A stretch of DNA of 64,000 nt, taken from the NCBI RefSeq assembly GCF_001445655.1, contig NZ_LNBE01000004.1, positions 2,551,138 to 2,615,137 on the forward strand, written 5' to 3'. The notes beneath the pieces were generated by a model that made no database searches, was not told the DNA's origin, and was given only the letters and a program-made list of their open reading frames with translations. Positions 43,845 to 46,671 of the stretch are shown piece by piece; position 1 is the stretch's first letter, and the number at the start of each line of letters is the position of its first letter. Origin of the DNA: Streptomyces roseifaciens (GTDB lineage: Bacteria > Actinomycetota > Actinomycetes > Streptomycetales > Streptomycetaceae). A program made the translations under genes and the position numbers.

Positions 43845-44828
43845 ATGTCTTCGACCGAGTCACCGGATGCCCGCACCGTCCCCGTGGTGCCTCCCGGTCG
43901 GCCCTCGCGCGTCAGCGAGGGCGAGGAGGTCCGTACGGTGACGCTGCCCGGCGTCACGCTGGCCGTGCGCTCCCGCCCGCCCCGGACCGAGGGGCTGCCG
44001 CCCGCGCTCTGCATCCACGGCCTCGGCGGCTCCTCGCAGAACTGGTCCGCGCTCATGGAGCTGCTCGCCGGCGACACCGCCTGCGAGGCGCTCGACCTGC
44101 CCGGCTTCGGCGACTCCCCGCCCCCGGACGACGGCAACTACTCGATCACCGGCTTCGCCCGCGTGGTCATCCGCTACCTCGACGCGAGCGCCCGCGGCCC
44201 CGTGCACCTCGTCGGCAACTCCATGGGCGGCGCCATAGCGACCCGCGTGGCCGCCGTCCGCCCGGACCTCGTCCGCACGCTCACCCTGATCTCGCCCGCG
44301 CTGCCCGAGCTGCGCCCGCAGCGCACGGCGGTGCCCACGGCGCTGCTCGCGATGCCCGGCGTGGCCTCCCTCTTCGCCCGGATGACGAAGGAGTGGACAC
44401 CCGAGCGGCGTACGCGTGACGTCCTCGCCCTCTGTTACGGAGACCCCGGACGGGTGACATCCGAGGGCTTCGCCCTGGCCGCCGCGGAGTACGAGCGGCG
44501 GCTGGAGCTCCCCTACTTCTGGGACGTCATGGCCCGCTCCGCACGCGGAGTGGTCGACGCATACACCCTTGGGGGCCAGCATTCGCTGTGGCGGCAGGCG
44601 GAACGCGTCCTTGCCCCTACTCTTCTGGTCTACGGAATGCGCGACCAGCTCGTCTCCATCCGGATGGCCCGCCGTGCCAGCAGGACTTTCCGCGACTCGC
44701 GGCTGCTGACACTGGTGGATTCAGGACATGTCGCCATGATGGAGGACCCGGACGCGGTGGCTCGTGCCTTCCGCGACATCCTCGTGGACACCGACACTGC
44801 CGATCGGAGCGCCTCGCCTCGTGGGTAA
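43845..44828 (+). CDS. Alpha/beta fold hydrolase
   Basis: A 327-residue protein. ALCIHGLGGSSQNW is the oxyanion segment, LDLPGFGDSPPP follows, and the nucleophile Ser is in HLVGNSMGGAIATRVA; the closing Asp (YGMRDQLVS) and His (LVDSGHVAMMEDP) complete the triad. A cap domain lies between (LFARMTKEWTPERRTRDV). Substrate unknown. The last 8 bp overlap the start of the DUF3152 gene, so the two are translationally coupled. Confidence 0.9.
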   Translation: MSSTESPDARTVPVVPPGRPSRVSEGEEVRTVTLPGVTLAVRSRPPRTEGLPPALCIHGLGGSSQNWSALMELLAGDTACEALDLPGFGDSPPPDDGNYSITGFARVVIRYLDASARGPVHLVGNSMGGAIATRVAAVRPDLVRTLTLISPALPELRPQRTAVPTALLAMPGVASLFARMTKEWTPERRTRDVLALCYGDPGRVTSEGFALAAAEYERRLELPYFWDVMARSARGVVDAYTLGGQHSLWRQAERVLAPTLLVYGMRDQLVSIRMARRASRTFRDSRLLTLVDSGHVAMMEDPDAVARAFRDILVDTDTADRSASPRG

Positions 44829-46671
44829 ACACAGCGCACGCGCCCCCCGCGCCGTCTCCCGGCCCGCCGCGCCCACCGCTCCCGGTGCGGGCGGCGGACA
44901 GGGAGCGGCCGGCCACGAGCCCGCGGCCGCCCCGGGGGAGGGCGAGGGCGACCCGCTCCACGACCCCGCCAGACCTGCGGGCCCGGTGGGCCAGGCGGGC
45001 CCCGACGGGTTCCCGGGGCAGCGCCAGGAGGTCGGCGTCGGCTGGGGCGTCATCGGAGTGCAGCGCGCCCCTGCGGCGGACGCGGGGGCGTACGGGCCGG
45101 GGAGCGTGCCCGGCTACGACACGCGGCTGGCCGGATACCTCGGCGGGTACGGAACGGGTCAGGACGCGGCGGCCTACGACGCCTCTTTCGACGCTCCCTA
45201 CGCCTCCTCCTACGCCTCCTCCGATTCCTCTTACGCCTCCTCCTACGAGGCGGGTCACGACACGTCCTATGACACGTCCGCGTCCTACGGCACGTCCTCG
45301 TCCTATGACGCGTCCTATGACACGGCCTACGACAGGGATGCCGCCGGACCTGCGGCCGCCACGGATGCCGCCGGGCACGCCGCCTACGTGGACCAGGCGT
45401 ACTCCGCGTACTGGCTGGGAGGCGCCCCCGCCCCCTCCGCCCCCGCACCGGACGGCGGCCTGGGCGACGATCCGGGCAGTGTGCTGACCGACGTCCACGC
45501 GCGCGTGGACGTCGGTCAGCACACTGCCCGGATCGTCGCCCAGGCCGCCGTCCGGTGCGGGGGCGGAGGGGGCGGGGGCGCCTCCCAGCCAGTACGCGGA
45601 GTACGCCTGGTCCACGTAGGCGGCGTGCCCGGCGGCATCCCTGTCGTAGGCCGTGTCATAGGACGTGTCGTGACCCGCCTCGTAGGAGGAGGCGTAGGGA
45701 GCGTCGAAAGAGGCGTCGTAGGCCGCCGCGTCCTGACCCGTTCCGTCCCCGCCGCTGCAGCCGCCCCCGGCGGCGGGCGCGGCCCCGCGCGCGGGGCGGC
45801 CGGCGGGGCCGGCCCCGCCGGCCGCCCGGCCCGTCCCCGCACCGGCGGCTCCCGCGGCGCCCCCTCCGCGAAGCCCGGCGGCGCCGTGGCGCGCACGGCC
45901 ACCGGCGTGGCCGCGGCCGTCGTGACGGCCGTGCTCGCCGTCGTCGTCGCCGGACAGGTCGAGGACGGCACCGAGACCCAGGCGCAGGCCCGCCCGGCGG
46001 ACGTCGAGCGGCAGAGCCCGGACGCCGCCTCCCGCTCCGACAGCCGCCCGACGCCCAACGGCGGCGTCGCCGCGCCGGTCACGTACGAGCAGAAGATGGA
46101 CCGCAAGTACCCCCTGGACGCGAAGGCCAAGGGCAGCGGCTCCTTCGACACGGTCGGCGGGCACGACCGCGCTCCCGGCCGGGGCGACGTGGTGCACTAC
46201 CGCGTCGACGTGGAGAAGGGCCTGCCGCTCGACGGCGAGCTCTTCGCCACCGCCGTGCACCGCACGCTCAACGACGAGCGCAGCTGGGGCCACGGCGGCA
46301 CCCGCACCTTCGAGCGGGTCTCCTCCGGCGACGCCGACTTCGTCATCACCCTGGCCAGCCCGGGCACCACGGCCGCCTGGTGCGCCAAGTCGGGGCTCGA
46401 CACCACGCAGGACAACGTCTCCTGCGACTCCGCCGCCACCGACCGCGTCATGATCAACGCCTACCGGTGGGCGCAGGGCGCTGCGACGTACGGCGACAAG
46501 ATGCACGCCTACCGGCAGATGCTCATCAACCACGAGGTCGGCCACCGCCTCGGGCGCGACCACGAGTCGTGTTCCAAGGAGGGCGCGCTCGCCCCGGTGA
46601 TGATGCAGCAGACCAAGTTCCTGACGTCGGACGGCGTCACGTGCAAGCCGAACGCCTGGCCCTATCCGTGA
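44821..46671 (+). CDS. DUF3152 metallopeptidase-like membrane protein carrying an internal inverted duplication
   Basis: A 616-residue protein as it stands. Residues 1-105 are Pro/Gly/Ala-rich; 107-227 come from the left arm of a large palindrome, with a Ser/Tyr/Asp-rich repeat (YASSY, SYDT units). Residues 228-312 are the antisense reading of the same DNA and look unnatural (Val/Gly/Arg-rich). A transmembrane helix at about 359-380 (TGVAAAVVTAVLAVVVAGQV) is followed by the extracellular DUF3152 domain with the metzincin-type HEVGHRLGRDH (His571, Glu572, His575, His581) and a later APVMMQQTK. GTG 44821 overlaps the hydrolase stop by 8 bp. DUF3152 next to TetR/DUF3107 and moeZ is a block I recall from mycobacteria (Rv3206c-Rv3208A). 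Confidence 0.85.
   Translation: MGKHSARAPRAVSRPAAPTAPGAGGGQGAAGHEPAAAPGEGEGDPLHDPARPAGPVGQAGPDGFPGQRQEVGVGWGVIGVQRAPAADAGAYGPGSVPGYDTRLAGYLGGYGTGQDAAAYDASFDAPYASSYASSDSSYASSYEAGHDTSYDTSASYGTSSSYDASYDTAYDRDAAGPAAATDAAGHAAYVDQAYSAYWLGGAPAPSAPAPDGGLGDDPGSVLTDVHARVDVGQHTARIVAQAAVRCGGGGGGGASQPVRGVRLVHVGGVPGGIPVVGRVIGRVVTRLVGGGVGSVERGVVGRRVLTRSVPAAAAAPGGGRGPARGAAGGAGPAGRPARPRTGGSRGAPSAKPGGAVARTATGVAAAVVTAVLAVVVAGQVEDGTETQAQARPADVERQSPDAASRSDSRPTPNGGVAAPVTYEQKMDRKYPLDAKAKGSGSFDTVGGHDRAPGRGDVVHYRVDVEKGLPLDGELFATAVHRTLNDERSWGHGGTRTFERVSSGDADFVITLASPGTTAAWCAKSGLDTTQDNVSCDSAATDRVMINAYRWAQGAATYGDKMHAYRQMLINHEVGHRLGRDHESCSKEGALAPVMMQQTKFLTSDGVTCKPNAWPYP
45141..45754. repeat. Spacer-less long inverted repeat (palindrome) inside the DUF3152 gene
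   Basis: Left arm 45141-45501 (361 bp) and right arm 45502-45754 (253 bp) are reverse complements, meeting with no spacer at 45501/45502. I find one substitution (45148 against 45747). The left arm has three extra blocks: 33, 48 and 27 bp. Each extra block is flanked by a short direct repeat (encoding YASSY, SYDT and DAAG), so slippage deletion in the right arm or expansion in the left explains them. The outer ends share a 7-bp CGGCGGG/CCCGCCG microhomology. The centre coincides with a codon boundary of the gene. Confidence 0.95.

Follow-up and report, generated by a model that had tools for sequence, protein, structure and literature searches.

A spacer-less palindrome in a DUF3152 gene of Streptomyces roseifaciens is most likely a fold-back artefact

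Geometry of the palindrome and the reading frame

The window analysed here (the whole stretch of 64,000 nucleotides taken from the Streptomyces roseifaciens assembly) carries a DUF3152 gene with a PF11350 profile score of 198.1 bits (curated cut-off 25.1), and a long palindrome occupies the low-complexity linker of this gene (Table 1). Global alignment of the left arm (361 bp) with the reverse complement of the right arm (253 bp) revealed one mismatch, three gaps and zero spacer, confirming the two spacer-less, reverse-complementary arms described in an earlier sequence-only reading. The three extra left-arm blocks reported there, flanked by short direct repeats, were also recovered; they measured 33, 48 and 27 bp, and the exact direct repeats at their borders were 16, 14 and 12 bp long, respectively. 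The left arm without these blocks was identical to the right arm except at 1 of 253 bases, and the innermost 139 bp of either arm were perfectly complementary. The palindrome is not a product of chance, since the next best inverted repeat in the window (spacer up to 20) had arms of only 26 bp.

The single substitution noted in the earlier reading exists (position 45747), but the inverted copy proper probably contains none. The mismatch lies in a stretch that matches the forward linker of S. hiroshimensis, and the inverted copy proper therefore probably ends near position 45746 without a substitution. As judged from the sequence, the mismatch is better read as the resumed flank than as a mutation in the copy; an A-to-C base error is a possible alternative. 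The weak quasi-palindrome beside the right arm is possibly a second, short fold-back and was not counted as proof of one.

Table 1. Features of the DUF3152 gene and its palindrome (window coordinates).
Feature	Position	Strand	Basis
DUF3152 gene, 615 aa as assembled; start VGKHSARAPR... as in relatives	44824..46671	+	PF11350; start by comparison with relatives
Left arm A in the original orientation; repetitive linker rich in Asp, Tyr, Ser and Ala	45141..45501	+	Alignment; collinear with S. hiroshimensis
33-bp block, left arm only; 16-bp direct repeat at edges	45199..45231	+	
48-bp block, left arm only; 14-bp direct repeat	45263..45310	+	
27-bp block, left arm only; 12-bp direct repeat; homologous stretch in S. 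hiroshimensis	45336..45362	+	
Fold point CACGCG/CGCGTG; S. hiroshimensis has these 12 bases here but no inverted copy	45496..45507	.	
Right arm A', reversed copy of A minus the three blocks; copy proper stops near 45746	45502..45754	-	
Forward linker resumes; 26/30 bases match S. hiroshimensis	45744..45773	+	
Weak zero-spacer quasi-palindrome beside right arm; 23-bp arms, 91%	45788..45833	.	

Translation confirmed that the reading frame is open across both arms. The openness of the antisense half, which the earlier reading had singled out, proved to be ordinary: in the DUF3152 genes of eight relatives, 3298 of 3463 windows of 81 codons had no in-phase antisense stop. Selection for an open antisense frame was rejected, as such openness is ordinary for the composition of the gene. 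It had also been argued that a right arm of 253 bp could not be a simple insertion into an in-frame ancestor. The event is indeed not a simple insertion, but it poses no frame problem. Protein comparison showed that about 51 bp of the ancestral linker gave way to an insert of 243 bp, counted to the codon at 45745 at which the forward gene continues. Both lengths are multiples of three; the frame puzzle disappears because one stretch was exchanged for the other and not plainly inserted. The database version of the window protein (P0001, 427 aa) uses a GTG start at 45388, within the left arm and 188 codons past the start supported by relatives, and this gene model looks truncated.

State of the linker in relatives

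Comparison with DUF3152 homologues, as the earlier reading had proposed, showed that residues 228-312 are absent from the relatives examined, which carry an ordinary linker instead. This was seen in the DNA of S. hiroshimensis (L038) and in five proteins (P0002-P0006) from S. rectiverticillatus, S. aureoversilis, S. roseifaciens and two further strains. The linker of these relatives reads ...HARVPAP... or ...HARVPGAD..., and the window sequence turns back after HA. At the corresponding place S. hiroshimensis has a perfect natural 12-bp palindrome, CACGCGCGCGTG, whose centre is identical to that of the long palindrome but which is followed by no inverted copy. The window protein shares its N-terminus, the linker up to the fold point, a membrane-like segment and the domain with the DUF3152 proteins (PF11350) of verticillate Streptomyces; it differs from them in the linker, where 81 residues, almost all antisense-encoded, stand in place of about 17.

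The linker is repetitive and its length differs among relatives. A counterpart of the 27-bp block is present in S. hiroshimensis DNA and, by eye, one of the 48-bp block in the S. rectiverticillatus protein; that of the 33-bp block is less clear, as this stretch of the linker varies. Because counterparts of the blocks occur in relatives, the left arm represents the original state, from which the right arm was copied in shortened form.

We also searched for the insert elsewhere. A search with the insert alone (residues 229-312) returned one cluster, the window's own P0001, among 2429 candidates, defined as proteins of 0.55 to 1.75 times the query length that share 5-residue words. With residues 90-400 as the query, and scoring restricted to the 7988 candidates that had most words in common with it, 18 proteins were found, all of which except P0001 cover at most 45% of the region. 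The P0001 cluster, the only instance of the same junction that turned up in a search for independent isolates or assemblies, has four member sequences and could include a second assembly with this junction. A second full copy in the genome was rejected as the source: with 40 of 295 candidates scored, the matches comprised the site itself and pieces of at most 47 query bases.

These comparisons bear on the idea that the palindrome is under selection for a function, such as control of the gene through a giant hairpin in its mRNA. A transcript through the palindrome would be predicted to form a very long hairpin; however, the palindrome is absent from the relatives examined, it lies in the middle of the gene and its open antisense frame is ordinary. 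As no relative found carries the palindrome, this explanation was rejected, and we give it next to no credence.

Fold-backs elsewhere in the assembly

Recurrence was examined by scanning 61 stretches of the same assembly (1,255,200 bases including the window) for inverted repeats with a spacer of up to 40 and an ungapped score of at least 30. Long inverted repeats with near-zero spacer were identified at four sites: the window (139-bp arms, zero spacer), L078 (159-bp arms, spacer 8; and 84-bp arms, spacer 39), L085 (96-bp arms, spacer 0; and 94-bp arms, spacer 16) and L105 (68-bp arms, spacer 16). An inverted repeat at L181 (32-bp arms, spacer 2) has the size of an ordinary terminator and was not counted as a site. 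The same scan gave no site in three genomes of the same genus (G051, G060 and G064; 400,000 bases each, 1,200,000 in total) and none in 60 loci of relatives (249,894 bases), 6 of which fall inside the control stretches with an overlap of about 22 kb. The fold-backs thus recur inside one assembly and are absent from the related assemblies scanned, in a sample that is small and not random, the window having been chosen for its palindrome. With the window left out, 3 sites in 1.19 Mb compare with none in roughly 1.43 Mb of control sequence after removal of the overlap (P about 0.09). Taken alone the site count is weak evidence, and the nature of the sites decides more than their number: the four share the fold-back form, and their genes are unrelated.

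At L078 (L078:4018-4543; G000:C4 about 2,639,000-2,639,550) two back-to-back fold-backs, in the order A A' B' B, lie in a repetitive linker and break a gene that we take to be TerD-like. Its open frame is 303 aa. When 101 genomes were searched for this gene, 92 matched, and the frame is at least 500 aa in 81 of the 91 other genomes that have it. The number of short cases was 10, and in 5 of them a contig starts within 320 bp, downstream of the match. In G018, similarly, the contig ends 197 bp upstream of the matched DUF3152 region; linkers of this kind thus end contigs in other drafts, in G018 for the DUF3152 gene and in five genomes for the L078 gene. The folded copy at L078 is without one 63-bp tandem unit that is present in the forward arm. 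The sequence-only reading had held that the three diverged blocks in the window argue against an artefactual copy; this argument fails, as the folded copy at L078 likewise lacks a repeat unit.

L085 (L085:3908-4336; G000:C4 about 2,778,900-2,779,340) also has two back-to-back fold-backs in the order A A' B' B, which meet at a run of 11 G and are flanked presumably by a DUF742-type gene and a CvnD-type GTPase gene. In the P-loop region, 6 bases distinguish the forward copy B from the folded copy B'; in B, 5 of them are changes to G and one is A to C. G060 agrees with the folded copy B', and the usual P-loop GFGVGKTT was read in L157, L160, L161 and L162 (4 of 7 relatives' loci, those read in the right strand). 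A damaged forward copy next to a correct reversed copy is the pattern that bad base calls would give. Sequence errors at the junction are thus clear at L085; the window site has no cluster of base errors, its sole mismatch being better read as resumed flank.

L105 (L105:19178-19329; G000:C4 about 199,180-199,330) carries a 68-bp inverted repeat with a 16-bp spacer in a presumably regulator-like gene, where antisense sequence replaces a short linker and the frame is still open. This linker was normal in 5 of 7 relatives fetched; the other 2 had no match to the motif used.

Separately, the assembly contains a run of 19 C at L111:4045-4063, possibly another base-calling error, and N-runs of 80 bases (L077:139-218, just past the end of the window) and 2,202 bases (L195:10218-12419). 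The N-runs may be scaffold gaps and were not used as proof of gaps.

Origin of the palindrome and comparison with known systems

Very probably, the palindrome is not chromosomal sequence and arose as an artefact, by fold-back during library preparation and/or assembly. At the window the forward sequence is followed directly by its own reverse complement and turns at a natural short palindrome, the relatives have an ordinary linker, similar fold-backs occur at three other sites, and base errors are found at one of them. An artefact is favoured because of the recurrence at four sites, the altered conserved genes and the G-directed base errors at a sister site; the open frames at the window and at L105, and the lack of a base-error cluster at the window, count against it. 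Of the two options named in the sequence-only reading, a template-switch inverted duplication and a fold-back artefact, the fold-back geometry was right, but the lean towards a real event is not borne out.

The palindrome would have arisen in vitro or in silico, probably in the following order. A single strand at CACGCGCGCGTG, in the GC-rich linker, could form a hairpin with the stem CACG/CGTG and the loop CGCG. Folded in this way, the strand would act as its own primer and be extended in reverse along its upstream part, which would yield reads running A then A'. Local assembly over a GC-rich gap, presumably one of low coverage, may then have taken up such fold-back molecules, with repeat blocks skipped at the 12-16 bp direct repeats, and the downstream flank would have been joined where the folded copy and the forward gene share the short similarity CGTnCCCGCCG. 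The k-mers usually used in assembly are longer than direct repeats of 12-16 bp, and the deletions are therefore better explained by slippage on a real molecule, whether in vitro or in vivo, than by an error of the graph alone. On the same ground of repeat length, a graph shortcut was rejected as the sole cause of the three deletions; we tentatively prefer slippage of the polymerase during library preparation or the closing of gaps on short overlaps.

The hairpin at CACGCGCGCGTG could self-prime in a test tube or in a cell alike, and a real, recent event in vivo must be weighed. A broken or stalled strand would have folded at the 12-bp palindrome, copied itself for about 245 nt and returned further downstream through a short similarity, while slippage removed pieces of the new arm. 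The centre has a short inverted repeat and the point of return has microhomology, which does not separate an event in vivo from an artefact; the result is in frame, and palindrome formation in vivo has reportedly been recorded for Streptomyces (Qin and Cohen 2000). Such an event must, however, recur at four sites in 1.26 Mb and at none in the controls, must break one conserved gene (L078), cannot explain why a forward copy carries G-directed errors when the reversed copy next to it is correct (L085), and is shared by no relative found. The genome also encodes SbcD (188.4 bits; cut-off 77.65), a part of a hairpin-attacking nuclease. We regard an event in vivo as unlikely. We likewise give a poor chance to its wider form, in which the lineage truly carries several near-perfect palindromes (70-160 bp arms) in conserved genes; these would reflect recent self-primed template switching at natural GC-rich palindromes, tolerated despite SbcD, and at least one gene would have gained a long in-frame antisense-encoded segment. 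Another real rearrangement, such as an inversion or tandem duplication present in part of the sequenced culture, might have been rendered as a palindrome by the assembler; the repetitive linker of variable length would suit this, but four sites in unrelated genes with the same fold-back form make it highly improbable.

Taken together, these data indicate that the palindrome is most likely not a real feature. If it is a fold-back artefact, antisense-encoded 'novel' protein segments can arise in GC-rich draft genomes through fold-back errors, and a scan for near-zero-spacer inverted repeats with arms longer than about 60 bp provides a cheap flag for such places. Until the reads are checked, none of the gene models that overlap the four sites should be taken as evidence of new domains.

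Related artefacts are known. Published reports describe library chimeras of a forward strand and its inverted complement at natural inverted repeats or palindromes (PMC10908179) and fold-back reads in long-read data (PMC12870357); artificial palindromes are also reported to follow whole-genome amplification (PMC6218980). Like the chimeras of PMC10908179 and PMC12870357, the window sequence follows the forward strand, reverses at a natural palindrome and continues as the inverted complement of itself. Those reports concern reads, whereas the window form stands in a finished assembly, has three repeat-block deletions and rejoins the gene. The in-vivo route to palindromes reported for Streptomyces (Qin and Cohen 2000) would yield the same centre as in the window by self-primed copying at a short inverted repeat; the window differs from it in that the copy is bounded on both sides by gene sequence, several sites occur in one assembly and one of these carries base errors.
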